Of a stretch of 50,150 nucleotides of DNA, positions 5,581 through 41,461 are shown one piece after another; the stretch's first letter is position 1; every line of letters starts with the position of its first letter. The notes beneath the pieces were generated by a model that ran no database searches, was not told the origin of the DNA, and saw nothing but the letters and a program-made list of their open reading frames with translations. The stretch spans positions 1 through 50,150 of the forward strand of contig JACRCV010000097.1 of NCBI GenBank assembly GCA_016218825.1, read 5' to 3'. This DNA comes from Deltaproteobacteria bacterium (GTDB taxonomy: Bacteria; Myxococcota; XYA12-FULL-58-9). The position numbers and the translations under genes were made by a program.

Positions 5581-8500
5581 CTACCTGAATAGATAGATCG
5601 AACCTGCATCACGCGTGGAAAGTACCATCTGCGGTTCGGTCGCAGCAGTCCCAGGCACGAAGCCGTTGGCCGCCGCCAGTCCAGTGCCAAAACTGGGCGC
5701 CCCGCGGAGAATCGCTCGCTTCACGAAACCGCCTGCCCCAACATCAAGCGAGTACAAGTAGACACCAAAGTTTCCGACACCTGCGTTGTAGCCAGGACCC
5801 ACCAATATGTCCACGCCGGACAACCCGTCAAAGTCGCCAACGGCCGCGAGGGAGTTGCCGTACTGAGTCGGTGGCAACCCGGTCCAGTCTGTCGGGTCAA
5901 GCGCGGCCGGCGACGGCACGATGCCAGGGCTACCGCCCAAGGCAGTCCCTTTGTATACAAAGACCTGCCCATTGCCAGCCGCTTGTACAAGGAGCCAGTC
6001 GGCCAAGTCCGCCGCACCGAGTGGGTTGGTGATGCCGAGAAGAGTCTGACCGAAGTTGACGCCACCTGCAGGATAGCGCAATACCGTCATGAGCTGCGAA
6101 GGCGCTGAATCCGGTGCTGCAACATCGCCCACTAGACCCGCGCCACCACGGTAGACGTAAACCTCGCCGCAATTGTTGCAGGACCCCGACGAGTCGTGGC
6201 TTGCCGTATTGTCGCTCACCACAACGTCACCCGCCCCGTCGCCATTGACGTCGGCAACGGTAAGGAAGAACGGAAAGAGGCCGAACAACGACGCCTTGCG
6301 CTGGAGTGAGAGCTCGGGCCGATTGGCGAAGCCGGAGCTGGGCGTTGATACCAAATCGAGGTTTATCAAGCTGGTAGCCGAACCCGAGGACGGGAAACGA
6401 GAACGGGATCCTCCAAAAAAGCCGTACACGCGCGGCTTGTTCCCTGTTGGCTGTGTCGTCACTACGATGTCGGCGCCGTGGCGTCCGTCCACGTCGCCAA
6501 GGCTCAAACGATAGCAGAACCTCGCATTGGCGGGTCCGAGCAGCGCGACATCCGGCGTCACTGAGGGCAACTGAAAATCCGTTGTGTTCAAGTCTCGGCG
6601 GATGCCTTCGCCTGCCTTGCCGTAGTACAGATAGAGCGCACCAGCCGCGGCCCCAGAACTAGTTGCACCGGTTGTCGGCATGGTGGGGGCGCACACGGCG
6701 AGGTCCGAGAGTCCATCGCCATCGAAGTCGCCGCCCGCGATGTTGACGCCGAAAAGACCAGGCCCGTTGGCCGGCGACATAATGACAACGTCTGGTGAGG
6801 TTAGGCTCCCACTGCTCAAGAAGAGCGACACCGAAAACACCTCGGTCCGTCGGGTCACGCCGAAATCGCCACGGCCGTCACCATCAAGGTCACCGAGGGC
6901 GGTCACGGTGTTGCCAAACCATGTTGATGAAGCGACAGAGGCCAGGGCCGCGGCAGCGCTGTCGTCGACCGGAGAAACCGGATCAAACCCCACCACCTGA
7001 GGATAATTGACGAGCGGCATCGCCCGCTCCCGAACCGAGCTGGCCACCACCGCCTTGTTCCCAGCATCATCGACGCCGAGAACCGCGAAGCAATACGAGC
7101 GATGCGGATAGAGGTCGGTGATGCCGGCCCGCTCCTGCCCGCCCGGCGCCGCGGTCGCCGTCACGTTGACGACCTGCTCCACCTTGGCCGCGTCCGTCGC
7201 CACGAGCTCGGCGCACTGGGTGTACGTGACGCTCTGGGCGGTGGGCGGCTGCGGGTATGGAATGCCGCGCGCCGCGACCAGGATCTGATAGCTCACGACC
7301 GCCCCGCCGCTCGCCCCGTCCTCCGCCGGCGCCTGCCACACGAGCGTCGCCTTGCCCTTGCGCCGATCGCACTTGCCGGTCACCGCGCAGTGCGCCGCAC
7401 AGCTCGGGTCTTCGTAGGTCGAGGGATCGCTCGCCGGCGTCGAGACGGTGTACGGCGTCGTCGACTCGCCGATGCAACAAGTCGCCTGCGCCGCCCCAGG
7501 CACCAACACGTCGGTCTTGGCGTAAAGGGTCTCGGGATCCCGCGGCGTCGTGATCGTCGCCTGGTTCCCGGCCCGATCCATGAACGCCACCGTCAGCTGA
7601 TGCGCCTCCGCACCCGCGAGCGTCGGCACGTTCAGCTCTCTGAACGTCGCCGAACCCGCCTGACAGGTCGGACAACCGGTGGCCGCCTCGTCGTTGCCCG
7701 TGAGCCCGCCCCGGTTCGACACCAGCCGCACCCGCTCGCCCGGCTCCACGCCCAACAACCGGACCGTGAGGGGCTTGCCGGTGGCGAGGATCGTGAAACC
7801 ATTCGACGGCGTCAGGTCCTGATCCCCGGCCGCGTTCCAAACCGCCGGCGACGCCGCCCCCACCATGTTCGCCTGGTTGTCGCCGTCCCACTGCCCGGCG
7901 TCCACGCAGGTCGTCAGATCCGTCGGACAGATGCCGCCGCCGGTGAGCGGCACCCCCAGCTTGCACAACGAGCAACGGTCGAACTGGAACGTCGGCGGAT
8001 CGATGTCGGCGATGATGTTGTTGTACTGCCGCAAGCCGCAATTCGCGGCGGCCGCGCAGTTCACCGTGACGATGACGCTGTTGATCTTGTCCGCCGCTCG
8101 GTCCCCCGGATGTGGGCTGGTCCGCAGGACCACCCCGCTGAAGTCGACCTCGAAGACCGTCGACGAGATCGTCGCGAGCGTCACATCCGCCGTCGTGCTG
8201 GTGTTCACCTGGAAGTCGATGGTGGTGGGCGTCAGCGCCGCAGCCGAGGTCCTCGTGACCCGCACCCGCAGATTGGTGGCGAAGGCGCCGGGCGCGCCGA
8301 GATTCTCCGCCGGCCCCCAGTAAATGTCGTTCGCCAGGAAGTCGCCGGTCGCCCCCGGCGGCACCAACCCGTTCAGTCGCTCCACGACCACCAACACGCC
8401 GTCCAAACTGAGCTTGAGGTAGATCGGGTCTGAATGACTGACGTTGTCGTTGCTGTCGATCGCCGCCACCCGCACCGCCCGCACCACTCCAGGCGCCAAC

Positions 8501-11500
8501 CGGTAGCCCGCCGGGTAGGACCCGAGCGTCAGGTCGGTCGCCACCCCGATACGACTGGTGTCCACTTCTTCGTAGGTCGACGTCACCCCGACGATCAGCG
8601 ACTCCAACCACACCGTGGCTGCAGATGCCTCGATCGTCGCGTCGCTGTTCACGAGGCCCGATAGCGTGTAGCGCAGGTCGGTGCCACCGTTGTTCCGATA
8701 CGGATCGGTAGCATCCAAATCCAACAGCGCGAGGCCGTCGTTGTTGTCCGGGTTCTTGTAGTCCGCAACACAGCCATCCACCGCGTCGACCTCACAGGTC
8801 GACTGGTGCTGGAGCGGACTCACCGACCAGACCTGGAGCGTCAGACCCGGCCCGTAGAAGTCCGCCGGATACAGCGTCCGCGCCGTCGTCGTCTTGTTGC
8901 CCGCCGCGTCGACGAGCTCCGCCTCGAGGTAGTTCTTCCCCATGTGCAGCAGGAACGCCGGGAACGAGATACTGGTTTGGCCGGCGGTGAGCGTCACCAC
9001 CGCGCTCTCGAGCGCCGTGCCCCCGGCGGCAGCGTCGAACGACCGCAAGGTCAGCTGCCCGCCCGCGAGATCCTCGTTGTCCGCCACCGCCACCAGCACG
9101 CCGACGCCGAGCTTCTGGTTCCCGTCCGGCGTCCCGTCCGCCGAGGTGTAGGGTGCCGCGCCATGCGCCGGCCCCGGCAGGCTCACCGTCGGCGGGATCA
9201 GGTCGACGACGACGTCCTGCGACGCCACCAGGTCGGTCGTGACGTCGTTGTAGTTGCCGGCGTCGTCGCTCACCCGCACGAACACATGCTGCCGCCCACC
9301 GTACAGATCCACGTCGACGCTCGCGATCTGCGTCGTCGCGTCGCCGCCGAGCACCACGCCCGCGACGCTCACCACCGTGCTCGCCGCCGGCACGTCGCTC
9401 AGGACGTCGACGCTGCGACCCGGGGTCGAGCCGGTCACGGTGATGTCGAGCCGGGTCCGGAGCCGGTCCGCCGTTCGGGTGCGCTCGGTCTCGCCGAGCA
9501 GGAAATAGCCGCTCTGGTCGTTCGCGGTCTTGTTGTCGACGTAGTCGACCGCGCTGACCGACGGCGGCACCGAGTCGACGCTGAAGGCGAAGAACGACGA
9601 GAACGAGTCGGGGTTCTTGTCCGGCGCCACCACCTCGGCGTGGATGGTCTGCAGCCCGTCGGCGAGCGTCACCGCCGACATGAACGCCGAGCTCGCCGCC
9701 AACGACCCGACGAGCACGCCGGTGGCGATGACATAGCCCGCGGTCGGATCCGGCGTCGCGAAGTCCGTGCGGATGTTCAGCGGGTTACCGTCCGGATGCC
9801 AGCGGCAACAATCGAGCTCGCTGCCGGCGGCGCAGGTGCCCACCGCGCCCGCCGTGGGCTCGGTCGAGCACAGCTTCAGCGTCGTCCCCGGCGCGAACGC
9901 CACCACGTTGAAGGCGAAGGTCGCCTGAATGCCGGTCTGATTCGGATCGTTGTCGCGCCCGTTGTTGACGGAGCCCGGACCGCCGGGGATCGCCCAGTTG
10001 ACCCGCGCCTCCAGCCCCTTGACCTCGAAGCTGTAGGAGCTCGCCGGCGCCACGTTCCCGGCCAGGTCGGACACTGACGCGGTGGCCCGGTACAACCCGT
10101 CCGCGAACGCCAGGGTCGGGAAGCTCACCGTCGCCGTCGCGGGCAGCGTGAGCGGGAAGTCGCTCGCGGTCTTGCCTTGCGGTGGCGGGTCGATGGTCAA
10201 CGAGACGTTGCCGACGGCGTCACCGGTCACGTCGTACTTGAACGCGTAGTCGACATACGTCGAATCGACATTGGCGTCGTCCGAACGCGACAGCAACGTC
10301 TGCGACGGCGGCGGCGACTGTTGCGTCAACACCGGCGGCACCATGTCGACGGTCAACGTCGCCGCCGTGCCGGTCGCCTGGTTGCCGCCGAGATCGGTCA
10401 CCCGCGCCTGGAACGAGATCGAGCCCGACGTGGCGACGCCGAAGTCGACGTTGCCGAAGGTGACGAGCACCGGATCGCCGCCGGTCGCGAGCACCGTGCT
10501 GTAGGTGGTCGCGCTCCCGGCGCCCGGTGGCGTGACAGACAGCGACACCGTCCACCCGGCGGGATCGGCGCCACCGGTGTGCACGACCACCCCCACCGAG
10601 TGTTGCAGCCCGGCGAGCCCGGAGTCGTCGGCGACGAGGGTGTTGACGTAGCCCGGCGGGCTGAACACCAGACGCCCGGGCGTGCCGGGATCCTCGCTGC
10701 GCAGGTCCGGCGCCGGCGGCGCGGTGTCGTCGATGGTGACCCGGATCGTCTGGCTCACCCCCGAGCCGCACTCGACGCGAACGTCGTGCGTCGCTTCCGA
10801 GGCGTCCGCCGCGGTGTCGATCACGAGCGGCGCCGCGGTCGGCTCGGTCCAGGTGGCGGTGCCGTTGGCGCTGCCGTCGATGAACAAGGAGCACGCCGCG
10901 TTGGCGTAGGTGCCCGACGCCTCGGCGCCGACGTACACCGCGTGCACCTCGAAGGCGGTGTTGCCCGTCGCGCTGCCGGCGGGCGGCGCCGAGATCACGA
11001 GCTCCGGCCCCGCTGCCGGCGTCGTGATCGTCGCCATCGCGCCGCTCGCGGTGTTGCCGAGCGCGTCGGTGTAAACCGGCGTCAGCTCGATCCCCGTCCC
11101 CGACGGCAAGCTCGCGTCGGTGAAGGTCACGCTCGTCGCCCCGGCGCCGATCGGCGCGCTCAGGACATTGTAGACCGTGCCGCCTTTGCCGACCGTCACC
11201 GAGATCACGCCGCTCTGAGTGTCGGCGGCCGCGAGCTCCACAGTGAGCGTCTGGTTGAACCCCGGAAGGCCGCCGTTGCTGTCGGTCGGGCTCGCCGCCA
11301 CCGCCGGGTTGAAGGTGGGCACCGGCGCCGTGTCTTTGACCGTCACCAGCACGTTCTCGCTCAGGTTGTTGATCGCGTCGTCGACCGAGACCGCGATGCA
11401 GTTCTGCCCCGAGGCGAGCGGCACGCCGGTGAACAACACGCCGCCCGCGGTCTCGAAAACCGTCGCGATCGGCCCGGCCGCGGGAACCCCGGCGCACTGC

Positions 11501-13584
11501 CGCACCCCCGCCGTCGTCGTCGAGCCCGGAAAGACCTCCACGGTCACGGTGCGCGGGTAGCCGGCGAGCCCGAGCCCGGTCGCGACGTCTAGATCCACCT
11601 GCGTCTGCCGGATGGTCAAGCCGTCGGCGAGCGCGCGCCGACGGGTAAAGTCGGCAACACAACCGGCGGCCCCGGTCGCGTTCCACATGCAACCGGCGGC
11701 CGAGGCGCACGCCGTCTGGTCGTTCACCGCACAGCCCGAGTTGTCGGCGACGTAAGGCGTCACCACCACCGCCGCGGGCGACGACGACACCGTCACCGTG
11801 ATCGGGGCGCTGTCGACGTCGTTGTTGCAGACGTCCTTCACGCGCGCCACCAGGGTGTGGGCGCCGTCCGAGAGCGACACCGGCTGCAAGATGGTGCCGC
11901 CGACGCCGACCGGCGGCACGAAGTTGTAGGTCGCGTCGCCGGTCAACAGCCGCCCGATCGAGCCCGCCGGCACGTTGGCCAGCGTCAGCCCGACGTCGTA
12001 TTGCAGGCCGGCGATGTTCCGCTCCATGTCGTCGGCCACGCCGAGGCGCGCCTGGTCGTCCGGCGCCGAGATCGTCACCGTCGGCGGCGTCGTCGACACC
12101 GTGACCTGGGCGCGACGCGCCGCGCTCCGATTCCCAGCGACGTCGAGCGCGGTGTACTCCACGGTCACGTCACCGTCCCCCAGGTCCACCTGACGCACGA
12201 TGAAGCTGCCGGCGGTCACCGTCCCCACGCCGCGGCAGAATGCGTCGCGACACAGCTGCGGCGCGGCGCAGTCGGTATCGGCAACGCACGCGGTCGCCGT
12301 CCCGCTCGTCGGGTAGACCATCACCCAGACCTCGGCACCGTCCTCGGCGCCGGCGACGTTGCCGTTGGCGTCGGTCTGGATGCCGGGGATCGCGGTGTAG
12401 AGATCTTGCGAACCGACGTAGCACCCCCCGGGGCCCGGGGTGAGCGGCACCACGGTCGGCGGGTTCGAGTCGACCCAATAGCGCGTCGGCAGCGTCACAC
12501 CCGACTGCCCGGGGTTCTCTTCTACCACGCCGACCAGCTCGATGTCGTAGCGGCTCGGGCCGGCGCTCTCGTCGAGCTGCACGCTGGTCATCCGGAAGCG
12601 CCACCCCAACGGATCCGCGGTCGCGACCGGCGGCGTCGACAAGATCAGAGTCGTGTACGCCGGCTGCGGATCATTCGCGCTGCGCTTGCGGTAGTGCATC
12701 GTGACCGTCGACGCGCTGCCGCAATTGGTGACCAGGTCGAGGGTCGCCTGCATCCCGCCGACCGGGTTCAGATCGGCGTCGTCTTTGGCGAGCAGCTTCG
12801 CGCCGTCGATCGGCTCCAACACCGCGAGACAGCGCGCGGTGTCAACCGTCACCGTCGCCGTGGTCGGCGCCCCCGATGCGGCCGCAACCTGGGGCACCGC
12901 GGCGAGGGCGTTCGGCCCCTCGGCGAGCGGCACCCGCAAGAACGTGGCGCGCAGCCCCGGCAGGCCCGACAGGGCACCCAGCACCGCGGTACGCGGCAGA
13001 CCGCCGTTGACGCGCAGCAAGACCACCTCGCCCTCGGTGCCGCCGAAGCAATCGAGCTCGACGTCGACCTCGAACGGGTCGAAGGGATCCTGGGCGTTGA
13101 CGTACTCCGGGTTCTCCGCGGTGAGGACGCTGCCGTCCGCCGGATCGTTGAAGGCACACGCCGCGAGCTTGACGGTGACGGTGACCTGGGCGCAACGGTC
13201 CCCCTCGCACTTCATCGACTCTTCCCAGGCCGGGATCGCGACCCGCAGGATCACCGCCCCCGACGGCAAGGTGTAGCCGGGGAACACGACCCGATCGCCG
13301 CTGACGGTCCCCTCCACCCGGTGCGCGGCGCCGTCGACGCTGTTCCACAGGTAGATGCTGTCGCCGTCGTTCATGTTGGTGACGGTCGCCTGGACGTTGC
13401 TCTGGATCCCCGCCGCCGAGCTGACATCGTCGGTGGGTCCGAGGACGCTGCCGTCGAGCGGAAACTCAAAAGCCAGCCGCGGCTCGTTGTACGTCACCCG
13501 CGCCCGGCCGCAGCTCCCCGAGCAGCCGAACGGCAACAGCAGCACCGCCACCAGCCCCAAACGCAGAGTCCGCATCGATGTCAC
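5581..13584 (-). CDS. Giant secreted lipoprotein: multiple Ig-like domains, Fn3-like domain, C-terminal FG-GAP propeller
   Basis: About 2,667 residues. The N-terminus is a lipoprotein signal (LVAVLLLPFGC, lipobox Cys21; +2 Ser suggests outer-membrane sorting). Residues ~60-2080 are a long series of bacterial Ig-like units of roughly 100-130 aa with repeated DxAGN/DxxGN turns (LVDAAGN, VSDLAGN, VKDVCNN) and scattered cysteine pairs. An Fn3-like unit lies at ~2085-2175 (VWQAP...PHRSYCFAVLGVDDAGN). The last ~450 residues carry five clear FG-GAP/calcium-loop motifs (GDLDGDGRGDF ~2228, GDFDGDGLSDL ~2288, GDVDGRHGADI ~2365, ADVNGDGAGDV ~2446, GDFDGLSGVDI ~2585). A GTG at 13584 with GGAGG 5 nt upstream overlaps the pqqD-like stop (GTGA); the ATG at 13575 is the alternative. 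An adhesive or structural surface role is likely. Base composition changes near 7.05 kb, close to the start of the propeller part. Confidence 0.85.
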   Translation of the reverse strand: MTSMRTLRLGLVAVLLLPFGCSGSCGRARVTYNEPRLAFEFPLDGSVLGPTDDVSSAAGIQSNVQATVTNMNDGDSIYLWNSVDGAAHRVEGTVSGDRVVFPGYTLPSGAVILRVAIPAWEESMKCEGDRCAQVTVTVKLAACAFNDPADGSVLTAENPEYVNAQDPFDPFEVDVELDCFGGTEGEVVLLRVNGGLPRTAVLGALSGLPGLRATFLRVPLAEGPNALAAVPQVAAASGAPTTATVTVDTARCLAVLEPIDGAKLLAKDDADLNPVGGMQATLDLVTNCGSASTVTMHYRKRSANDPQPAYTTLILSTPPVATADPLGWRFRMTSVQLDESAGPSRYDIELVGVVEENPGQSGVTLPTRYWVDSNPPTVVPLTPGPGGCYVGSQDLYTAIPGIQTDANGNVAGAEDGAEVWVMVYPTSGTATACVADTDCAAPQLCRDAFCRGVGTVTAGSFIVRQVDLGDGDVTVEYTALDVAGNRSAARRAQVTVSTTPPTVTISAPDDQARLGVADDMERNIAGLQYDVGLTLANVPAGSIGRLLTGDATYNFVPPVGVGGTILQPVSLSDGAHTLVARVKDVCNNDVDSAPITVTVSSSPAAVVVTPYVADNSGCAVNDQTACASAAGCMWNATGAAGCVADFTRRRALADGLTIRQTQVDLDVATGLGLAGYPRTVTVEVFPGSTTTAGVRQCAGVPAAGPIATVFETAGGVLFTGVPLASGQNCIAVSVDDAINNLSENVLVTVKDTAPVPTFNPAVAASPTDSNGGLPGFNQTLTVELAAADTQSGVISVTVGKGGTVYNVLSAPIGAGATSVTFTDASLPSGTGIELTPVYTDALGNTASGAMATITTPAAGPELVISAPPAGSATGNTAFEVHAVYVGAEASGTYANAACSLFIDGSANGTATWTEPTAAPLVIDTAADASEATHDVRVECGSGVSQTIRVTIDDTAPPAPDLRSEDPGTPGRLVFSPPGYVNTLVADDSGLAGLQHSVGVVVHTGGADPAGWTVSLSVTPPGAGSATTYSTVLATGGDPVLVTFGNVDFGVATSGSISFQARVTDLGGNQATGTAATLTVDMVPPVLTQQSPPPSQTLLSRSDDANVDSTYVDYAFKYDVTGDAVGNVSLTIDPPPQGKTASDFPLTLPATATVSFPTLAFADGLYRATASVSDLAGNVAPASSYSFEVKGLEARVNWAIPGGPGSVNNGRDNDPNQTGIQATFAFNVVAFAPGTTLKLCSTEPTAGAVGTCAAGSELDCCRWHPDGNPLNIRTDFATPDPTAGYVIATGVLVGSLAASSAFMSAVTLADGLQTIHAEVVAPDKNPDSFSSFFAFSVDSVPPSVSAVDYVDNKTANDQSGYFLLGETERTRTADRLRTRLDITVTGSTPGRSVDVLSDVPAASTVVSVAGVVLGGDATTQIASVDVDLYGGRQHVFVRVSDDAGNYNDVTTDLVASQDVVVDLIPPTVSLPGPAHGAAPYTSADGTPDGNQKLGVGVLVAVADNEDLAGGQLTLRSFDAAAGGTALESAVVTLTAGQTSISFPAFLLHMGKNYLEAELVDAAGNKTTTARTLYPADFYGPGLTLQVWSVSPLQHQSTCEVDAVDGCVADYKNPDNNDGLALLDLDATDPYRNNGGTDLRYTLSGLVNSDATIEASAATVWLESLIVGVTSTYEEVDTSRIGVATDLTLGSYPAGYRLAPGVVRAVRVAAIDSNDNVSHSDPIYLKLSLDGVLVVVERLNGLVPPGATGDFLANDIYWGPAENLGAPGAFATNLRVRVTRTSAAALTPTTIDFQVNTSTTADVTLATISSTVFEVDFSGVVLRTSPHPGDRAADKINSVIVTVNCAAAANCGLRQYNNIIADIDPPTFQFDRCSLCKLGVPLTGGGICPTDLTTCVDAGQWDGDNQANMVGAASPAVWNAAGDQDLTPSNGFTILATGKPLTVRLLGVEPGERVRLVSNRGGLTGNDEAATGCPTCQAGSATFRELNVPTLAGAEAHQLTVAFMDRAGNQATITTPRDPETLYAKTDVLVPGAAQATCCIGESTTPYTVSTPASDPSTYEDPSCAAHCAVTGKCDRRKGKATLVWQAPAEDGASGGAVVSYQILVAARGIPYPQPPTAQSVTYTQCAELVATDAAKVEQVVNVTATAAPGGQERAGITDLYPHRSYCFAVLGVDDAGNKAVVASSVRERAMPLVNYPQVVGFDPVSPVDDSAAAALASVASSTWFGNTVTALGDLDGDGRGDFGVTRRTEVFSVSLFLSSGSLTSPDVVIMSPANGPGLFGVNIAGGDFDGDGLSDLAVCAPTMPTTGATSSGAAAGALYLYYGKAGEGIRRDLNTTDFQLPSVTPDVALLGPANARFCYRLSLGDVDGRHGADIVVTTQPTGNKPRVYGFFGGSRSRFPSSGSATSLINLDLVSTPSSGFANRPELSLQRKASLFGLFPFFLTVADVNGDGAGDVVVSDNTASHDSSGSCNNCGEVYVYRGGAGLVGDVAAPDSAPSQLMTVLRYPAGGVNFGQTLLGITNPLGAADLADWLLVQAAGNGQVFVYKGTALGGSPGIVPSPAALDPTDWTGLPPTQYGNSLAAVGDFDGLSGVDILVGPGYNAGVGNFGVYLYSLDVGAGGFVKRAILRGAPSFGTGLAAANGFVPGTAATEPQMVLSTRDAGSIYLFR

Positions 13585-13940
13585 AGCGACCTCCCCGAGC
13601 CCGTCTTGGCCCTGACCGGCACCAGCACGTCTCTTTTCGCGAGCACACCCACGAACCCCTGGGCGTCGGCGAGCGCTCGCGTCGCGGTGGTGTCGAACTC
13701 TCGCACGATCTTGGCCACCACCTGCGGGATGGTCGCGGCGTGCTCGAAGCTCTCCCAGATGAAGGTCCCGACCTCGTTCAAGCGCAGCATCCGGCTGTTC
13801 AACAGGATGAACGCGGTGCCGTCGAGCGTCCGGCACGCCACCCGCGGGTTCCACTGCCAGCGACCGGCCGCTTTGGCGCTGCGGATATTCTTCGGCCTCG
13901 CGGCCGGCTTCTTGGCCTTCGGCTTGGACTTGGTCGTCAT
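13581..13940 (-). CDS. PqqD-family peptide-chaperone (RRE) protein
   Basis: A 119-residue protein. After a Lys/Pro/Ala-rich basic N-terminus (~1-25) comes a PqqD-like winged-helix: WNPRVACRTLDGTAFILLN, then RMLRLNEVGTFIWESF, an ATIPQVVAKIVREFD helix, and DAQGFVGVLAKRDVLVP. The LNEVGTFIW motif and the alternation of beta strands and helices are diagnostic of the family, which binds leader peptides and presents them to radical SAM enzymes. It is locked between spoVR (ATGA overlap) and the giant lipoprotein (GTGA overlap), so it is cotranslated with both. The nearest radical SAM enzyme (4324-5379) has no fused RRE, and a candidate precursor follows the lipoprotein in the same orientation. This protein may serve that system in trans; that link is inference. 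The long basic N-terminus is unusual. Confidence 0.75.
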   Translation of the reverse strand: MTTKSKPKAKKPAARPKNIRSAKAAGRWQWNPRVACRTLDGTAFILLNSRMLRLNEVGTFIWESFEHAATIPQVVAKIVREFDTTATRALADAQGFVGVLAKRDVLVPVRAKTGSGRSL

Positions 13941-15522: not shown

Positions 15523-17460
15523 ATGCACCAAACCACCTCGAGCTTCGCGAATCGGATCCTCTACCTGTGCCAGGACGGCGCCCGCCTGCGCCGCCAGCTC
15601 GACGGCGAGCTCGAGCCCGCGCCGCCCGCCGACCTACTCGACAACGTCTCGACCGACGCTATCACCCCCGGGTGGGCGTGCTACTGGTACGACGACACCC
15701 TCGGGCGCTACTGCCTTACCGGCCTCGCGAGCCTCGCGGTCGGCAAGGATGCGATCCGAGACGGCCACTTCGACGTCGTCGTCGCCGGCCGCTCGTTCGG
15801 CTGCGGCTCGAGTCGCGAGACCGCGCCGTTCTCGTTCAAGGCCGCCGGGGTGCGACTCCTCGTCGCCGAGAGCTTCGAGAAGATCTTCGAGCAGAACTGC
15901 CAGAACATCGGTCTCTACACCTCCACCGACTTCGGGCTCCTGGCGCGCATCCGCGCCGGGGAGAAGATCCCCACCGCCGAGCTCTGTCAGAGCCAAGACC
16001 CGATCGCCGCCGCCATCATCCGCCACGGCGGCCTGTTCGCCTACAACCGCGCCCGCCTGAAGGGCGAGGTCGTCCCCGACATCCCGACGACCCCGAGGCG
16101 AGCGATGACCGCGGTGGAGAAGATCATCGCGGCGCACGCGGTGCGAGACCGCCACAGCGGGGAGGTCGGCCTCGATGCGGTCGCGCCCGGTGACGCGGTC
16201 TTCTGCCGCGCCGACCTGCGGTTCTCGCACGACTACGTCACGCCGATGGCCGCGGTGCTGTTTCGCGCCGGCTGCGGTCCGGCGCCACGGGTGGCCGACC
16301 CCGAGAGCTGCTACGCCTTCCGCGATCACCTGACCTTTCTGAAAGACGTAATGCCGGAGTCACAAAGGGGACAGGGCCTGCTCGCCCTCGCCGATGATCT
16401 CGCGACCGCCCAGGCGCGCTTCTGCCGCGAGCAGGGCATCGAGCTGTACGGCGAGGTCGACGGCGGCGGCAGCGTCAGCATCTGCCACAACGCCGTCCTC
16501 GACGAGCTGGCCTTGCCGGGGCAGCTCGTGATCGGCACCGACTCACACACCTGCACCGCCGGTGCCTTGGGCGCGTTGGCCTTCGGCGTCGGCGCCACCG
16601 ACATGGCGAACGCCTGGCTCACCGGGGACGTCCGCCTGCGCGTGCCCGAGAGCGTGCGCATCGAGCTCATCGGGCGCTTCCGCGACCACGTCGCCGCCAA
16701 AGACCTGATCCTCGCGATCCTCGCCCACCCCTACGTCAGGAGCGGCAAGGCCATCGGCCAGGTGTTGGAGCTCTGCGGCCCCGGCGTCGCCGCCTTGCCC
16801 TTGGACGAGCGCGCCACCGTCACCAACATGGCGGTCGAGGCCGGCGCCTTCACCGGCTTCGTCGCCGCCGACCCCACCGTAGTGCAAACCCTCGCGGCGC
16901 TGCGTCACCTGCCGCCGCTGGAGCTCGAGCGTCGCGTCGTCACGTCGGATCCGGACGCCGGCTACGCCCACCGCCTCGCCTTCGATCTCGCGGCGATCGA
17001 GCCGATGGTGGCGCTCCCCGGCGATCCACGCTCGGGCGTGCCGATCGCCAGCCTCGACCGCCGGGTCGAGATCGACATCGCCTACGGCGGCTCGTGCACC
17101 GGCGGCAAGCGCGCCGACCTCGACGCCTATGCGGCGGTGCTCACACCGGCCGCAAATGCCGGCCGACGGGTGAAGGACGGGGTGCGGCTCTACATCCAGT
17201 TCGGCTCGCAGGCCGTCAAGGCCTACGGCAACGCCCAGGGCTACCTCGAGACCTTTGCGAAAGTCGGCGCCACCCTCATCGACCCGTCGTGCGGCGCCTG
17301 CATCAACGCCGGCCCCGGGGTCTCCGACCGCGCCTCGCAGGTCACGGTGTCGGCGATCAACCGAAACTTCGCCGGTCGCTCCGGCCCCGGGCAGGTGTAT
17401 CTCGCTTCGCCCGCGGTGGTCGCGGCGTCGGCGCTCGCCGGGTTCATCACCGCGCCGTAG
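15523..17460 (+). CDS. Aconitase-superfamily dehydratase, swivel domain first (LeuD-LeuC order)
   Basis: About 645 residues. The N-terminal ~200 residues are the swivel (LeuD-like) domain with GRSFGCGSSRETAPF, and the C-terminal ~420 are the 4Fe-4S catalytic part. The cluster Cys motifs are GTDSHTCTAGALGALAFG and DPSCGACINAGPG, with SCTGGKRADLDAY contributing to the substrate pocket. Ordinary aconitase and homoaconitase have the swivel domain last, so this is the permuted arrangement. Substrate cannot be assigned: 3-isopropylmalate, citrate/isocitrate, homocitrate or 2-methylcitrate are all possible, and no leu or prp genes are adjacent. The ATG at 15523 is preferred because conserved sequence begins soon after it; a GTG at 15496 is in frame. 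A TATCCT at 15501 could be a -10 element but leaves a very short leader. Confidence 0.8.
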   Translation: MHQTTSSFANRILYLCQDGARLRRQLDGELEPAPPADLLDNVSTDAITPGWACYWYDDTLGRYCLTGLASLAVGKDAIRDGHFDVVVAGRSFGCGSSRETAPFSFKAAGVRLLVAESFEKIFEQNCQNIGLYTSTDFGLLARIRAGEKIPTAELCQSQDPIAAAIIRHGGLFAYNRARLKGEVVPDIPTTPRRAMTAVEKIIAAHAVRDRHSGEVGLDAVAPGDAVFCRADLRFSHDYVTPMAAVLFRAGCGPAPRVADPESCYAFRDHLTFLKDVMPESQRGQGLLALADDLATAQARFCREQGIELYGEVDGGGSVSICHNAVLDELALPGQLVIGTDSHTCTAGALGALAFGVGATDMANAWLTGDVRLRVPESVRIELIGRFRDHVAAKDLILAILAHPYVRSGKAIGQVLELCGPGVAALPLDERATVTNMAVEAGAFTGFVAADPTVVQTLAALRHLPPLELERRVVTSDPDAGYAHRLAFDLAAIEPMVALPGDPRSGVPIASLDRRVEIDIAYGGSCTGGKRADLDAYAAVLTPAANAGRRVKDGVRLYIQFGSQAVKAYGNAQGYLETFAKVGATLIDPSCGACINAGPGVSDRASQVTVSAINRNFAGRSGPGQVYLASPAVVAASALAGFITAP

Positions 17461-17491
17461 GTATTCGCGGACGGTTCTCCGTCGGCCGGGC

Positions 17492-17530
17492 AAAAAAAAC
17501 CGCAGGTGGCGCGAGCTGCACCACCTGCGG
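17492..17530 (-). terminator. Strong Rho-independent terminator
   Basis: A perfect 10-bp stem, CCGCAGGTGG/CCACCTGCGG (17500-17509 with 17521-17530), with an 11-nt loop. On the minus strand it is followed by eight T residues (17492-17499). It ends the transcript of the gene whose stop is at 17558, and also lies just past the convergent aconitase-family gene. Confidence 0.9.
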
Positions 17531-17557
17531 TGTACGAAAACACAGCTCGGCTACGGA

Positions 17558-18337
17558 CTACTTCGCGAAGCTGAAGCGCGGCTCGATCTGCCTGGCCTCG
17601 GGCGAGTTGTCATAGATCCGGTTGGAGCGCTCCTCGAGCGAGTTGCCGAGCGAGCTGATCTTGCCGGCGATCGCCTCGATGGCGGCGCCGACGTACTCCA
17701 TCGTGTAGCCAATGGCCTTGCCGATCACGTACGGCACACCCTTGCCCGCGCCCACCACGATGCCTGCGCCGCCTTCGGCCACGCCGTCAGCGGCGTTCTT
17801 GATCGCCGCGGCGCCGTCTTGCACGGTGAACATCGCGCCCTTACCGATGCGCTCGCCGCCGCGAACGAAGGTGTTCCAGTCTTCGTCAGTCCAGCCCTTC
17901 TTGATGTGCGCCTTCACGGTGGCCCAAGTGGCGTCCAGCCGAGCGCGCTCGGCGCCGCCGATGCCCCTCTTGTCCAACTCCTCGTTGTACATCTTGTCCA
18001 AGAGCGCGAGCTTCTGGGTTCCGGCGCGCAGGGTGTGGAAACCCGCCCACGCGGTGTCCGGAAGGGCCGTGACCACGCCATACAGCAGGCCGACGCCCGC
18101 CTCGGGCACGCCGACGATCAGGTTGCCGGCGGCGGTAACCGAGTTCACCGCGTCCTTGGCCGCTTGCTTGAAGTTGGCGCCCGAGGACTTGAACAGATCG
18201 ACCTCGAGGTTGCCGCTCCCGCCCTTGTAGTCTTGGTCGAGGCTCTTGCCGGTCCCGGCGCGGAACCCGACCTCGCGTTGATTGACGTTGATATTCTGGA
18301 TCTCGCGCGAACCCGCACCCTTAGCTGCTTCGACCAT
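17558..18337 (-). CDS. Unknown Gly/Ala-rich helical protein of the lipid-binding cassette
   Basis: A 259-residue protein that I do not recognise. There is no signal peptide. It has a polar N-terminus (~1-50), a hydrophobic helix-rich stretch (~60-100, LIVGVPEAGVGLLYGVVTAL), a charged helical middle with several Trp (~105-160), and a Gly/Ala-rich segment with GxxxG-like spacing (~165-225, GGAGIVVGAGKGVPYVIGKA). The end is polar. The balance of small residues and amphipathic helices resembles its neighbour at 19229-20137, suggesting peripheral membrane or lipid-surface association. A GGAGG lies 6 nt before the ATG. It has its own near-consensus promoter with an inverted repeat (18404-18432) and a strong terminator, so it is probably expressed well and separately regulated. 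Confidence 0.7.
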   Translation of the reverse strand: MVEAAKGAGSREIQNINVNQREVGFRAGTGKSLDQDYKGGSGNLEVDLFKSSGANFKQAAKDAVNSVTAAGNLIVGVPEAGVGLLYGVVTALPDTAWAGFHTLRAGTQKLALLDKMYNEELDKRGIGGAERARLDATWATVKAHIKKGWTDEDWNTFVRGGERIGKGAMFTVQDGAAAIKNAADGVAEGGAGIVVGAGKGVPYVIGKAIGYTMEYVGAAIEAIAGKISSLGNSLEERSNRIYDNSPEARQIEPRFSFAK

Positions 18338-18403
18338 GACAATCCTCCAGTTTTGGTTATTCCTTACGCCAAGTTATGGCATCCATTGCTCGAACGTGCC
18401 GGA

Positions 18404-18432
18404 AGGATACCGAACCGTTCGTTCGGAGTCAA
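18404..18432 (-). promoter_or_regulatory. Near-consensus sigma-70 promoter whose spacer is an inverted repeat
   Basis: On the minus strand: -35 TTGACT (18427-18432), 17-bp spacer, -10 TATCCT (18404-18409). The spacer (18410-18426) is an inverted repeat, CCGAAC-N5-GTTCGG, well placed for a repressor or activator. The -35 overlaps the stop codon of the upstream SCP2 gene. Confidence 0.65.
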
Positions 18433-18893
18433 CGCGCTTTTTGCGCGCTCGCCCGACGCCCGCCCCGGTCCGACTTCGCCGCGCCCCGGGTCGGTTTCCC
18501 GGCCTTCGGCGCCGCCAGCCCGGCTGCGGCCTTGGTGGCCCCGAGCTTCGCAGCCGACTTGCCGCTCAAGAACCCGGCAAACGCCTTGAACACCTTCTCG
18601 CTGCCCACGATCCCGAGCTTGTTGTCCGCGATCGCCTTCTTGGCGTCGAACTCGCCGGCGATGAACGTATCGAGGAACCCCTCGTCCAGCATGATGTGCA
18701 ACCCGGGGTCCTTGACCTTGCCGCGCAGCACGTCGTGCGCGCCCTTCTTGCGCAGATCAAACGTCCAGATGCCGCTGTTCTTGCCGGCCACGGTGAACAT
18801 CACGTAGGCGTCCACCGCCGCGGCCCCGATCTTGTTGGCCTGAACGTGCGAGCGCAAGAGAACTTCGAAAAGGAACTTCGGGTTGATGGCCAT
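18429..18893 (-). CDS. SCP2 (sterol carrier) domain protein with H1-like basic tail
   Basis: A 154-residue protein. Residues ~1-112 look like a single SCP2 domain: VDAYVMFTVAGKNSGIWTFDLRK, a DPGLHIMLDEGFLDTFIAGEFDAKKAIADNK region broken by the usual helix, and KVFKAFAGFLS at the end. This fold holds a hydrophobic tunnel that binds sterols, fatty acyl chains or other lipids. Residues ~113-154 form a Lys/Ala/Arg/Pro-rich tail (KAGKPTRGAAKSDRGGRR) like bacterial histone-H1-like segments, which could bind anionic lipid or nucleic acid. A second SCP2 gene lies at 20202-20576. No signal peptide is visible, so it is cytoplasmic. A plausible AAGGGA ribosome-binding sequence precedes the ATG. The natural ligand is unknown; sterols are one possibility because some myxobacteria make them. 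Confidence 0.75.
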   Translation of the reverse strand: MAINPKFLFEVLLRSHVQANKIGAAAVDAYVMFTVAGKNSGIWTFDLRKKGAHDVLRGKVKDPGLHIMLDEGFLDTFIAGEFDAKKAIADNKLGIVGSEKVFKAFAGFLSGKSAAKLGATKAAAGLAAPKAGKPTRGAAKSDRGGRRASAQKAR

Positions 18894-19163
18894 GAGAATT
18901 CCCTTCTTTCTGATTGGTCAACAGGAGTAGAGCTCCCGCTTCCGGTGGCGGCCATGAGAACCAGACATCAGCGCCGCAGTCAAGGCCGGGTCTCCGTGGG
19001 TCTGGCTGCGCGGTCGCAAACTCGGAGATCGGCTTTGTGCCCGGCGAAAAGACCGAGCCACTGGCTTCACCAGGGCGAGGTGCGGGGGCACGGAGGGACG
19101 CAGAGCCGGCGCCCCTGTGGCTCCGGGGAAGGCGCGGCACTTCACCCGGCGGGCGGTCCCCCG
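18894..19163. other. Non-coding upstream region of the SCP2 gene
   Basis: Together with the terminator at 19164-19200, this fills the 335-bp gap between the SCP2 gene start (18893) and the stop of the next gene upstream (19229). It lacks a convincing ORF. A TTGACT around 18993-18998 on the minus strand could be a -35 element, but the matching -10 is poor. A 17-bp string at its right end also occurs near 2288. Confidence 0.4.
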
Positions 19164-19200
19164 AAAAAAAAGGGTGGCGGACCCGTGGACCCGCCACCCT
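19164..19200 (-). terminator. Strong Rho-independent terminator
   Basis: A 10-bp perfect stem, AGGGTGGCGG/CCGCCACCCT (19171-19180 with 19191-19200), with a 10-nt loop. On the minus strand it runs into a stretch of T residues (19164-19171). It ends the two-gene transcript (20576 to 19229) and separates it from the downstream SCP2 gene. Confidence 0.88.
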
Positions 19201-19228
19201 CACTCACACGAAGAGGTGCGACCCTCGA

Positions 19229-20137
19229 TTACGCCGCGGCCTTGATGGCGTTGAAGCGCTTCTCGAAGTCAGCGATGGTCTTCTCGCTGATCTGGTACTT
19301 GGCCTGGTCCGGCTGCGCGAGCGCGTTGCCGGCCGCCGCGGTCAGCTCGGCGCTGAGCAACGCCAAGTCGCGGGCGCCCTCGACACCCTTCTCCGCGAAC
19401 TCGACGCCCACCTTGGCGACGCGCACCGCGAGCTCCGCCGCCTTCAACGGGAGCGGCGCCGCCGCCTGCAAAGCCGCGAGACCGAGGTTGCCGGCCATCG
19501 CGCCGGTGTGCATCGCGAAGTAGCCGACGTTGGTGATCGAGCCGGCCACGTGCCCGCCCGCCTTCGCGAGCTCGCGCGCCGCGTCGGCGTAGGCGTCCCA
19601 ACCGAACGACAGCGCCTCACCCGAGAGCTTGAACTGGTCGCCGGCGGCGTCGAACAGACGCTCCGACAACCGCTTGGCGTTCGGGTCGCCGAGGCTCTTG
19701 ACCACCAGCGCGTTGGTGCCGGCGTTGCCGAGCAGGCCGCGGTCGATCGCGTTCGCGAGCGCCACGAAGCCCTTGGCCATGTTCAGCAGCACGAAGCGCG
19801 CGCCGGTCGCCATCCCTTCGATGGCCCAGCCACCGGTCGCCACCGCGCCGATCGCCGCGCCGGCACCCGCCCGCATCGCCGCCTCGGCGTCATAAGCAAC
19901 GCCGTCCAACGCCGCGAGACCCGCGAGGCCGGTGTGGCCGAGCGCAAACACCGCGTTCATCGCCGCGCCGTCGAGATGACCGAGAGCCTTGGCGCCCTCC
20001 TGGCCGGCCCGCTTCACGCTCTTGCCGGCCTCTTCCAGCGAGTTCTTGCTGGCCTTGGCGAGGGCGTCAGCGGCGTTGTCGAGCACGAGCGCGGCAGCTT
20101 GAAACTCGTTCTTCGGGGCGGCAACTTTGATCGACAT
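19229..20137 (-). CDS. Unknown alanine-rich, all-helical protein (phasin/apolipoprotein-like character)
   Basis: A 302-residue protein that I do not recognise. More than a quarter of the residues are alanine, almost no proline or cysteine is present, and the whole chain appears as long amphipathic or weakly hydrophobic helices (DNAADALAKASKNSLEEAG; GAGAAIGAVATGGWAIEG; ELAVRVAKVGVEFAEKGVEG). There is no signal peptide and no single strongly hydrophobic transmembrane segment. Such composition is typical of phasins, apolipoprotein-like coat proteins and other proteins lying on lipid or polymer surfaces; this is inference from composition only. An AGGAG lies 7 nt before the ATG. It follows the SCP2 gene at 20202-20576 by 64 bp and is probably cotranscribed from the promoter at 20646-20674, ending at 19164-19200. 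Confidence 0.75.
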   Translation of the reverse strand: MSIKVAAPKNEFQAAALVLDNAADALAKASKNSLEEAGKSVKRAGQEGAKALGHLDGAAMNAVFALGHTGLAGLAALDGVAYDAEAAMRAGAGAAIGAVATGGWAIEGMATGARFVLLNMAKGFVALANAIDRGLLGNAGTNALVVKSLGDPNAKRLSERLFDAAGDQFKLSGEALSFGWDAYADAARELAKAGGHVAGSITNVGYFAMHTGAMAGNLGLAALQAAAPLPLKAAELAVRVAKVGVEFAEKGVEGARDLALLSAELTAAAGNALAQPDQAKYQISEKTIADFEKRFNAIKAAA

Positions 20138-20201
20138 GATATTTCTCCTGGTTCTTTCTTCCTGTGTTGAGAATAAGGTTGCAGATTATCGGCAAACGCA
20201 G

Positions 20202-20576
20202 CTAGTTGTTGTCTGCGGGACGCAAGAGCGCGGCCATGCCCACGAGCAACTGCGGGCGGCCGGTGAAAAACAGACGCTTCGCCTTCACCGCCTCGGCGGC
20301 ATCGAGCTTCCCGGCGAGCAGCGCGTCAAAATCGTCCGCCGACAGCTCGAGGCGCATGTCGGGATGATCGTGATCGCCGTGGTTTACCTTCTGCTTCGGG
20401 AGATCGACAGTCCAGGTACCGCCGTCCTTGCCGTCCACCTTGAAGACGCAAACTGCGTTGAGCTGCTTGGCGATATCTTTCTGGGCCTCTAGGACCTTCG
20501 GGAGGAACTCCTCGAAGATCTGGGTAGCCGTGTACTTCTCGACCTGCTTAGACATCGACGGATGATGTATGGCCAT
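20202..20576 (-). CDS. SCP2 (sterol carrier) domain protein
   Basis: A 124-residue, essentially single-domain SCP2 protein. An N-terminal helix (ATQIFEEFLPKVLEAQKDIA) is followed by a strand pair with VCVFKVDGKDGGTWTVDLPK, then HPDMRLELSADDFDALLAGKLDAAEAVKAKRLFFTG and a C-terminal helix. The ADDFDALLAGKLDA helix is the family hallmark. It should bind a lipid in a hydrophobic tunnel in the cytoplasm. GGAGGAAAG lies upstream of the ATG at 20576. It is first in a two-gene operon with the Ala-rich protein, behind a near-consensus promoter that overlaps the end of the fadL-type gene. It is divergent in sequence from the SCP2 protein at 18429-18893, so they are not a recent duplication. Confidence 0.78.
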   Translation of the reverse strand: MAIHHPSMSKQVEKYTATQIFEEFLPKVLEAQKDIAKQLNAVCVFKVDGKDGGTWTVDLPKQKVNHGDHDHPDMRLELSADDFDALLAGKLDAAEAVKAKRLFFTGRPQLLVGMAALLRPADNN

Positions 20577-20590
20577 GACTGCTTTCCTCC

Positions 20591-20607
20591 CATATCCTAG
20601 GGATATG
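20591..20607. promoter_or_regulatory. Palindrome just upstream of the SCP2 ribosome-binding site
   Basis: A perfect 7-bp inverted repeat with a 3-bp centre (CATATCC-TAG-GGATATG) in the predicted 5' untranslated leader, ending directly beside the GGAGG. It could be an operator or a hairpin modulating translation. It is AT-richer than its surroundings. Confidence 0.5.
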
Positions 20608-20645
20608 CCGCCGCGACCGGCACATCCGGGCGCAAGGGTAGCGGA

Positions 20646-20674
20646 ATCGTAAACAAGAGCCGTACGGATGTCAA
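20646..20674 (-). promoter_or_regulatory. Near-consensus sigma-70 promoter for the SCP2/Ala-rich operon
   Basis: On the minus strand: -35 TTGACA (20669-20674, perfect), 17-bp spacer, -10 TACGAT (20646-20651). The -35 overlaps the stop codon of the FadL-type gene. Predicted leader is about 60 nt. Confidence 0.65.
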
Positions 20675-22122
20675 TCGCGTTCGCGGCAACAATTTGGTCC
20701 CCCGACAGCCAACGGCGCAGCCGCCGGTGCCGCCCCGAGTGCCACGCCGACGGCCAGCATCGCCAGGACCTGGTGGTTGCTGTAGTCGCCGTTCGCGATC
20801 GGCCACTGCTCTGACGGCGGCAGGGTGAGCGGGTTGACGATCTTGATGTTGGTGTTGGTCACCGTCACCGGCAGCCAGTACAAATAGCCGGCGGCGACGT
20901 CGACGAAGATCCCGAGCGGCAGATCGAGGCGCGCCCCGAGGGTCGCACCCACCTTGTCGAGATCGAGCGAGAACGCGCTCAGGTACTCCTCGGGCACCGC
21001 GCCCTTCTCGTAAAAGCCGCCGAGACGCAGCGCCAGGAGATCGGGGAGCAGCTGGTACTGGGCGCCGCCGCGAACGCTGAAGGTGTCCTGCCAATGAGAC
21101 GTGATCTTGATCTCCTGCAACGTGGTGTCGCCGCGGCTGACGTCCGACATCACGATGTCCTTGGGCTGGAACAAGATCGTGTCGTTGCGATGCCAGCCTT
21201 CGTGGACGAACGCCAAGGACAGCGCCAGCCGCTCCTTGAGGGCGCGGTAGGTCGCCGCCACGGTGATCACCGCCGCCAGCTTCATCCGCGCGTCGATCTG
21301 GTCGCCGCGAACGCTCGCGAGGCGCGCCAGGCCGGAGGCCAGAGCGATCTGGTCGGCCTTGCCGGACGCATGGACGTCGAAGGGTAGCTGATAGGACGCC
21401 GCGATCGTCAGCGCCGGGGATAGCGCGCCCGAGATCCCGACGATGCCGCAGGGGATCCACGGATCGACGGCGCGCACGTGCACGTAGGCGTCGTACGACG
21501 GGTCCTCCGGCTGGGCGAGCGGCGGGAACACGCCGCTGATGTTCAAGCCGGCGTCCACGGTCTCGCGGATGAGCATCCCCGCGACCCCGAGCCGCAGCTG
21601 ATACCAGGGCAGCTCGTACGCCGCACCCAAGGTCATGCTCATCTGCAGCGCGTGGTACTCGACCTCGGAATAGCGCTGTGCGCCCTCTTTCGGCCAGACG
21701 TGGTCGACCCTTGGTGGGCCGTAGACGCCGCCGCCCACCGTGAGCCCGCCGAGGCCGAGCCTCTCGAGGTTGTAGGACGCGAACAGCGCCGGGCTCGGCA
21801 GCGTCGGGGTCCAGCCGTTCGCGACCGAGGTGTAGCGCGTCAGCGTGCCGCTCCCAATCGGGTCGTCACTGGCGCGCGCGAAGGTGCGGGCATCGAAGAT
21901 CCAATCGGCGTCCACGACGACGGCCAACCCCTTGACGCCGGCGAGCCCCGCGGGGTTGTGCATGATGGCCGTCGGGTCCCGCGGATCGGCCAGGCTCGCC
22001 GCCCCCTGCCCGAAGCTCGCCGTCCCCTTGTCGATGTTCCACCAGCCGGCGGCATGGGCCGCGATCGGCATACAAAGGAGGACGACGAGCGGCCACCACC
22101 CCTGTTGACAGCCGCGCCGCAA
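20671..22122 (-). CDS. FadL/OMPP1-type outer-membrane transporter for hydrophobic compounds
   Basis: About 483 residues. A signal peptide (WWPLVVLLCMPIAAHA) leads into the family's N-terminal signature: a small-residue hatch (GTASFGQGAASLADPRDPTA followed by IMHNPAGLAG). The rest is alternating beta strands with aromatic girdle residues, ending in short strands, consistent with a 14-stranded barrel. Family members pass long-chain fatty acids or aromatic hydrocarbons across the outer membrane through a lateral opening. No ATG fits ahead of the signal peptide; TTG at 22122 gives an MRRGCQQG n-region and is my choice. It diverges from the EpmA-like gene and sits directly upstream of two SCP2 genes on the same strand, which suggests that imported lipid is handed to cytoplasmic carriers. 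The C-terminus ends NCCRERD rather than in a strong aromatic. Confidence 0.75.
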   Translation of the reverse strand: MRRGCQQGWWPLVVLLCMPIAAHAAGWWNIDKGTASFGQGAASLADPRDPTAIMHNPAGLAGVKGLAVVVDADWIFDARTFARASDDPIGSGTLTRYTSVANGWTPTLPSPALFASYNLERLGLGGLTVGGGVYGPPRVDHVWPKEGAQRYSEVEYHALQMSMTLGAAYELPWYQLRLGVAGMLIRETVDAGLNISGVFPPLAQPEDPSYDAYVHVRAVDPWIPCGIVGISGALSPALTIAASYQLPFDVHASGKADQIALASGLARLASVRGDQIDARMKLAAVITVAATYRALKERLALSLAFVHEGWHRNDTILFQPKDIVMSDVSRGDTTLQEIKITSHWQDTFSVRGGAQYQLLPDLLALRLGGFYEKGAVPEEYLSAFSLDLDKVGATLGARLDLPLGIFVDVAAGYLYWLPVTVTNTNIKIVNPLTLPPSEQWPIANGDYSNHQVLAMLAVGVALGAAPAAAPLAVGGPNCCRERD

Positions 22123-22191
22123 GATCCGATAGGCCAGGGGCCCGTCGGCCCACAAGGGCGCCCGGGTGCGGTGGGACGAGGAGCGCGGCGA

Positions 22192-23181
22192 ATGAACTTG
22201 GAGGGGATGCACCGACGCGCCGCGATCATCAAGGCGGTGCGCGCCTTCTTCGACGGCCGCGGGTTTCTGGAGGTCGACACCCCGGTCGCGGTCACCGCGC
22301 CGGCGCCCGAGCCGCAGATCGAAGCACCGGCGACCGCCCTCCGCGTCGGGCACGAGGTGCAGCGCCGCTTTCTCCAGACCTCGCCCGAATTGATGATGAA
22401 GCGCCTGCTCGCCGCCGGTGTGACGCGCGCCTATCAGATCGCCCCGGTGTTCAGGGACCGCGACTTCACCAGCTGCCATCGCCCCGAGTTCCGCCTCCTC
22501 GAGTGGTACCGCCGGGACGCCGGCTGGCAAGAGCTCCTCACCGACTGCGAAGGGCTCCTCGCCGCCGCCGCCACCGCCGCCGGTCTGGGTGTCCGCATCC
22601 CCTACCAGGGCAAGAGCATCGACCTGCAGCCACCGTTTCGCCGCCTCAGCGTGGAGGCGGCTTTCGTGCAGCACGCCGGCTTCTCCATCCTCGAGGCCCA
22701 GAGCGTCGAAGGTCTCCAGGCCCGGCTGACCGCCACCGGCGTTCGGTTTGCCGCGGACGACACCTGGGACGATCTCTTCCATCGCGTCTTCCTCACCCGT
22801 GTCGAGCCCGAGATCGTCGCCGACCCCAAGCCCGTCTTCCTGACTCACTACCCGGCGCCGCTCGCCGCCCTCGCCCGCCTCGACCCGGACGACCCTCGAG
22901 CCTCGGAGCGCTTCGAGCTCTACGCCGGTGGCCTCGAGCTCGCCAACGGCTTCGGCGAGCTCACCGATCCCGGCCTGCAGCGCCGTCGCTTCGCGGACGA
23001 CCGCGCTCGCCGCCGGCGACTCCAGCTCGCCGACTATCCCTTCGACGAGCGCTTCCTCGCTGCGCTCGCCACCCTCCCGCCTTCCGCGGGCATCGCGCTC
23101 GGCGTCGACCGCCTGTTGATGCTGCTGTTCGACGCCGCCGACATCGACAGGGTGGCGTTTATCCCCTGGAGCGAGTCGTGA
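22192..23181 (+). CDS. epmA: EpmA-like EF-P (R)-beta-lysine ligase / truncated lysyl-tRNA synthetase
   Basis: A 329-residue class II aminoacyl-tRNA-synthetase catalytic domain without the N-terminal OB-fold of LysRS, which is the EpmA/GenX/PoxA architecture. Motif 1 is GFLEVDTPV, motif 2 is APVFRDRDFTSCHRPEFRLLEWY, and motif 3 is GIALGVDRLLMLLF. EpmA attaches (R)-beta-lysine to elongation factor P, aiding translation of polyproline stretches. The partner genes epmB (lysine 2,3-aminomutase) and efp are not in the window, so function by homology only. A GAGGAG 8 nt before the ATG supports the start. trmB follows 64 bp later on the same strand. Confidence 0.82.
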   Translation: MNLEGMHRRAAIIKAVRAFFDGRGFLEVDTPVAVTAPAPEPQIEAPATALRVGHEVQRRFLQTSPELMMKRLLAAGVTRAYQIAPVFRDRDFTSCHRPEFRLLEWYRRDAGWQELLTDCEGLLAAAATAAGLGVRIPYQGKSIDLQPPFRRLSVEAAFVQHAGFSILEAQSVEGLQARLTATGVRFAADDTWDDLFHRVFLTRVEPEIVADPKPVFLTHYPAPLAALARLDPDDPRASERFELYAGGLELANGFGELTDPGLQRRRFADDRARRRRLQLADYPFDERFLAALATLPPSAGIALGVDRLLMLLFDAADIDRVAFIPWSES

Positions 23182-41423: not shown

Positions 41424-41461
41424 CAGCTCATCGCCCTCTTTCGCACCAAGCGCTGCAGCGC

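Follow-up and report, generated by a model that had tools for sequence, protein, structure and literature searches.

In known members, the SCP2 fold has a tunnel that holds a single hydrophobic molecule. Bacteria commonly carry SCP2 domains, and for most of these domains we know of no described cargo or recipient. There is some precedent for an SCP2 protein with a dedicated partner protein, in two described systems. In the ubiquinone metabolon of Escherichia coli, the SCP2-domain protein UbiJ is accompanied by UbiK, an amphipathic helical partner that meets the membrane (PMC9499169), and in Myxococcus xanthus the gene for the SCP2 protein StkB is followed, 12 bases on, by the gene for the small protein StkC, which resembles PhaE to a limited degree; both proteins affect exopolysaccharide (PMC4319316). 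Here, we describe an SCP2 gene, SCPb, and the gene that follows it, B302, in a 50,150-nucleotide stretch of DNA (the window; contig JACRCV010000097.1, positions 1 to 50,150) from a Deltaproteobacteria bacterium of the phylum Myxococcota. We propose, tentatively and with a probability of about 0.42, that these two genes form a lipid-handling module with a logic like that of UbiJ–UbiK, in which a docked carrier would work with a surface-bound partner.

The SCPb–B302 gene pair

The initial annotation of this locus had described five genes as a cassette with a possible role in the import, carriage, and coating of a lipid. All five reading frames were confirmed on the minus strand, where the order of transcription is FadL, SCPb, B302, SCPa, and A259; gene starts are inferred throughout. 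The features of the SCPb–B302 pair are as follows.

20646–20674, minus strand: promoter-like site (TTGACA-17-TACGAT), over the FadL stop codon and reading into SCPb–B302
20202–20576, minus strand: SCPb, stand-alone SCP2 lipid-carrier protein of 124 aa (PF02036, 42.8 bits), partner of B302
19229–20137, minus strand: B302, Ala/Gly-rich predicted helical protein of 302 aa, of a family without a name
19694–20074, minus strand: B302 repeat unit 1, residues 22–148, aligned to unit 2 by hhalign
19274–19669, minus strand: B302 repeat unit 2, residues 157–288, aligned to unit 1 by hhalign
19170–19201, minus strand: terminator-like hairpin after B302, with 14 pairs and a T-run

A profile built from relatives of B302 was used to scan 195 genomes of the phylum; all genomes compared in this study are draft metagenome-assembled genomes (MAGs). 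Strong matches were found in 11 of these genomes, representing eight families, and in 11 of the 13 B302 clusters the gene directly preceding B302, in the same orientation and at a distance of 2–138 bases, encodes an SCP2 protein. The source genome contains 10 SCP2 loci; because about 10 SCP2 genes among an assumed 5,500 genes would give a chance adjacency of about 0.002 per cluster, chance is negligible as an explanation, and the observed adjacency is far beyond its reach. Four genomes presented two B302-type genes beside a single SCP2 gene. The other neighbours of the pair vary (e.g., zinc protease, PPK2, BacA, ribonucleotide reductase, and guanylate cyclase), and a Pfam test identified no common third gene among the flanking genes of the relatives. 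Weak profile matches to a DnaK gene (L046) and within one other genome (G078) were attributed to composition and disregarded. Outside the phylum, the family was sought in plasmids, with no B302 match, and by one motif-based search of genome contigs with a five-member B302 alignment, which returned only MAGs already in the phylum set; a scan of genome contigs with the single B302 sequence gave no match.

SCPb matches the SCP2 profile PF02036 well above its cut-off (42.8 bits versus 21.3), over profile positions 4–100 of 101, and a profile of its relatives (i.e., the SCP2s paired with B302) matches the solved SCP2 domains of human SCP2 and MFE-2 with E values of about 1e-12. In a tree of 41 SCP2 domains, SCPb groups with the SCP2 of one relative (L014; support 96/94), near other B302-paired SCP2s; the nearest relatives of these SCP2s are each other, although they do not strictly form one clade and many branches are long. 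They fall outside a separate, well-supported clade (99/96) of SCP2s of 108–110 residues, most of which have as neighbour a CaiB-type CoA-transferase gene or another metabolic gene. SCP2 genes beside CaiB-type genes are widespread in the phylum (L055, L104, L112, and L090) and encode members of the same superfamily, but differ from SCPb in clade, in length, in having an enzyme as neighbour, and in having no Ala/Gly-rich partner.

B302 is composed of 26% Ala and 12% Gly, and had no match in Pfam or NCBIfam and no significant match in PHROGs; its 16 relatives likewise matched none of the Pfam families at E 0.01, with the phasin and BMFP models included. The initial annotation's view of B302 as an unrecognised protein thus held, with no matching family that would give it an unrelated established role, while the phasin- or apolipoprotein-like composition ascribed to it was accompanied by no phasin match in these profile searches. 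In the B302 family, one half of the protein can be aligned to the other (hhalign probability 95.8, E 6.6e-9, score 56), compared with scores of at most 26 for shuffled 11-column blocks and 20.5 for the reversed control; an earlier, smaller alignment gave a half-to-half score of 53.6, and none of 100 column shuffles exceeded 17.5. Rotated half alignments also scored high (35–52), a result to be expected from a repetitive, helical sequence. An internal duplication is well supported by these comparisons, with its exact phase less sure. Matches of the B302 profile to Protein Data Bank sequences were to designed helical repeats, and were rejected as reflecting composition.

Family-averaged hydrophobicity presented a strong helical period (98–100 degrees) over residues 11–52, 83–134, and 157–193, and segments predicted to be amphipathic (moment 0.38–0.47) lie at about residues 19–40 and 157–190; no 19-residue window in B302 reached the transmembrane level (maximum 1.39). 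In most B302 relatives the first residues read M-[ST]-x-(K)-I, in many cases with N-x-[FY] a few residues on, ahead of the first long helix. This short conserved head could act as a peptide for docking or targeting.

Putative transcription signals were identified by a σ70-like consensus scan over positions 17400–22400, which found two sites against an expectation of 0.4. Each lies on the minus strand and overlaps a stop codon, one that of FadL (20674–20646) and the other that of SCPa (18432–18404), and the two strongest terminator-like hairpins are located 3′ of B302 and A259. SCPb–B302 is thus bracketed by a promoter-like site and a terminator-like hairpin, consistent with a two-gene module; by the same rule, a relative of the same order (L017) has TTGACA-18-TATAGT directly before its SCP2 gene, and none of the other relatives has a promoter-like site before SCP2. 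The spacers of both promoter-like sites in the window hold palindromes, found by eye (CCGAAC-N5-GTTCGG and CCGTACGG), which could be operators. Because of the promoter-like sites at the FadL and SCPa stop codons and the hairpins after B302 and A259, the five genes are plainly read as separate predicted units (i.e., FadL, SCPb–B302, and SCPa, with A259 also transcribed from its own site) rather than as one operon. The initial annotation was therefore right about the presence and common strand of the five genes, and the single unit that it proposed gives way to these smaller ones.

FadL, SCPa, A259, and the flanking genes

The remaining features of the locus are as follows.

20671–22122, minus strand: FadL, outer-membrane channel of the FadL/OmpP1/TodX family (PF03349, 50.1 bits), a neighbour that is probably not in the module
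18429–18893, minus strand: SCPa, divergent SCP2 protein of 154 aa with a basic C-terminal tail
18404–18432, minus strand: promoter-like site (TTGACT-17-TATCCT), over the SCPa stop codon and reading into A259
17558–18337, minus strand: A259, Gly/Ala-containing protein of 259 aa without a family, presumed partner of SCPa
17499–17531, minus strand: terminator-like hairpin after A259, with 14 pairs and a T-run

FadL belongs to the family to which it had been assigned, scoring above the PF03349 cut-off of 29.7; its start codon is TTG and its N-terminus, read by eye, is signal-like. The orthologue in a genome of the same genus (G001) is 53% identical and lies on a separate contig, and the FadL loci of G001, G003, G005, and G006 presented no SCP2 or B302 gene within the stretch examined (at most 1.5 kb on each side). 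Conversely, the B302 neighbourhoods of the relatives contained no FadL homologue except for one weak match (E 0.03) some kilobases away. In G001, FadL, SCPb–B302, and the SCPa-type pair are found on three contigs (C368, C645, and C211, respectively), a point limited by the fragmentation of that assembly; within the same limit, the tandem order of the two SCP2 pairs is not conserved either. FadL is therefore probably a neighbour outside the module. Its proposed membership of the system was not supported, since the relatives' FadL genes lie elsewhere and a promoter-like site separates FadL from SCPb, and of the recurrent linkage to SCP2 and FadL genes suggested by the initial annotation, only the linkage of B302 to SCP2 was recovered.

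The second SCP2 protein, SCPa, scored below the PF02036 cut-off (17.8 bits), but shares 43% identity with an SCP2 protein of G001 (L107:2220-2708) that itself scored 34.5 bits, and the two form a clade (99/96) in the tree. SCPa is thus an SCP2 protein by homology to a member above the cut-off, and the claim of two SCP2 proteins holds by this indirect route for SCPa and by direct profile match for SCPb. In both SCPa and its G001 relative, the SCP2 domain is followed by a basic tail (PKAGK...RG.R) that SCPb does not have. A259 had been grouped with B302 as an Ala/Gly-rich helical protein, a description that suits B302 better, as A259 contains only 14% Ala and 14% Gly. It had no match in Pfam or NCBIfam, no significant match in PHROGs, and no homologue in 96 relatives; its global alignment scores with B302 and with the partner of the L107 SCP2 were no better than those of shuffled sequences, and its score against the B302 profile was marginal, being equalled by 12 of 2000 shuffles. 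We therefore do not claim homology between A259 and B302. The L107 SCP2 is the only close relative of SCPa, and 37 bases after its gene comes one for an Ala/Gly-rich protein of 346 residues without a known family; it is this position, rather than sequence, that makes it plausible that SCPa–A259 represents a second such pair.

Stand-alone SCP2 genes elsewhere in the source genome (L057, L058, L059, L060, and L061) and in relatives (L105, L111, and L114) also adjoin genes for other proteins, which are mutually unrelated: a PPDK_N protein of 1109 aa, a protein of 1057 aa without a family, a DUF7790 protein of 710 aa, a protein of 137 aa, proteins of 155 and 92 aa, and a NuiA-domain protein of 286 aa. 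The distances range from a few to about 90 bases or are overlaps, and several are at most 22 bases or are 4-base overlaps; overlaps of 4 bases are typical of translational coupling.

Upstream of FadL, on the opposite strand, are a lysyl-tRNA-synthetase-like gene (PF00152) and a methyltransferase gene (PF02390), and downstream of A259 the window encodes an aconitase-family protein and SpoVR. The SpoVR reading frame overlaps at its end with one for a 119-aa protein with a PqqD domain (13581–13940), which in turn adjoins a gene for a giant protein with bacterial Ig-like domains (5581–13698). A small Arf-like GTPase (PF00025) is encoded at 46040–46627, near TPR-rich proteins (37824–43777).

A proposed carrier with a surface partner and the alternative readings

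Under the proposal that SCPb and B302 form a lipid-handling module, SCPb would be a soluble SCP2-fold carrier of one hydrophobic molecule. B302 would be a cytosolic helical protein in which a unit of about 125 residues occurs twice; in each copy, a long, charged amphipathic helix is predicted to precede Ala/Gly-rich helices of mild hydrophobicity. It would sit on a lipid surface, whether a membrane or some other, and dock SCPb there, and the docked SCPb would load or unload its lipid at that surface. UbiJ–UbiK shares with this arrangement an SCP2-domain protein and a helical, membrane-touching amphipathic partner; however, UbiK is a coiled-coil protein of 96 residues of the BMFP family and UbiJ has extra C-terminal sequence, whereas B302 has 302 residues, is duplicated and Ala/Gly-rich, and has no BMFP match, and no ubiquinone genes were seen adjoining the pair. 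The likeness thus extends to the SCP2 protein and not to the family of its partner.

Several observations weigh against the module. An AlphaFold2 model of B302 built from 16 sequences presented helices throughout, but with a mean predicted local distance difference test (pLDDT) score of 61 and values above 85 only at about residues 231–302 (an earlier model, with a pLDDT of 49, was too poor for use), and a Foldseek search with the better model gave no significant fold match. Two B302 relatives, L043 (G178:C555) and L044 (G016:C25), have no adjacent SCP2 gene, although both genomes also hold a paired copy. The presence of the module in only 11 of 195 genomes indicates that it has no core function. 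Finally, SCP2 genes of the source genome also tightly adjoin genes for unrelated proteins, and therefore a gene next to one for an SCP2 protein is not necessarily involved in lipid transfer.

Among the alternatives, one takes B302 (and A259) as a phasin- or apolipoprotein-like coat of an intracellular lipid or polymer inclusion, with SCP2 ferrying lipid to and from it and FadL taking no part. We regard this as unlikely, although the predicted amphipathic Ala/Gly-rich helices without transmembrane segments and the SCP2 partner would suit a coat, M. xanthus has lipid bodies (PMC4048283), and StkC, encoded beside an SCP2 protein, shows limited similarity to PhaE (PMC4319316). Polyhydroxyalkanoate (PHA) phasins and lipid-droplet proteins (e.g., MLDS, PMC5504291) are likewise amphipathic and cover hydrophobic surfaces; however, B302 and its relatives match no phasin family, and no SCP2 partner is described for these proteins in the literature found. 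PHA synthase (PhaC_N) was not found in the source genome or in six of the 11 carrier genomes and is present in five of them, and wax ester synthase/diacylglycerol acyltransferase was found in none of the 11, source genome included, a weak point because the control genomes gave no signal either. Codon usage is at the 77th percentile for B302 and the 4th for SCPb, giving no clear expression signal and no sign of the abundance expected of a coat. A different function is assumed if SCP2 proteins shield and deliver particular proteins, with the hydrophobic helices of B302 as cargo for export or membrane insertion. The conserved N-terminal motif of most B302 relatives and the tight adjacency of other stand-alone SCP2s to quite different proteins without a shared family favor such a role, but the SCP2 gene comes first in some of those other pairs and second in others, and most of the partners show no hydrophobic segment by eye, leaving it doubtful. 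The Eag chaperones of type VI secretion system effectors belong to another family, DUF1795, which counts against the comparison. They nonetheless offer a precedent, being small proteins that are encoded beside a partner with hydrophobic helices and that chaperone hydrophobic segments (PMC7773334); the sheath protein TssB (PF05591) of that system was found in none of the 11 carrier genomes, while the control was found in E. coli.

A regulatory or envelope role, in which the SCP2 protein and a small partner tune exopolysaccharide production, is suggested by StkB–StkC, since less exopolysaccharide is made when stkB or stkC is deleted (PMC4319316), M. xanthus probably belongs to the same phylum, and the order of an SCP2 gene closely followed by a partner gene is similar. 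In M. xanthus, however, the DnaK-type gene stkA directly precedes stkB, where FadL precedes SCPb here, and StkC has 89 residues compared with the 302 of B302; the likeness is one of gene order, and this role appears quite improbable. Even less probable, to the point that we give it little weight, is an operon of all five genes for lipid import, carriage, and coating: their common strand and the gap between FadL and SCPb, which is 94 bases long and holds no strong terminator, are compatible with it, but the internal promoter-like sites, the hairpin after B302, the separate contigs of G001, and the FadL loci without SCP2 or B302 all speak against it. A broader reading, which we hold to be a minority possibility, is that stand-alone SCP2s of this lineage may be general adaptors, each copy serving its own unrelated partner (i.e., B302, A259, the PPDK_N, DUF7790, and NuiA-domain proteins, and others) as a dedicated carrier or chaperone, with B302 representing a new duplicated amphipathic surface family.

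The finding that one subgroup of SCP2 proteins nearly always occurs with the same unnamed, predicted helical protein provides a direct handle on the cargo and recipient of an SCP2 protein. If B302 coats inclusions, it would represent a new class of bacterial coat protein; if, as tentatively favored here, SCPb and B302 deliver lipid at a surface, the pair would constitute a second SCP2-plus-helix system beside UbiJ–UbiK.

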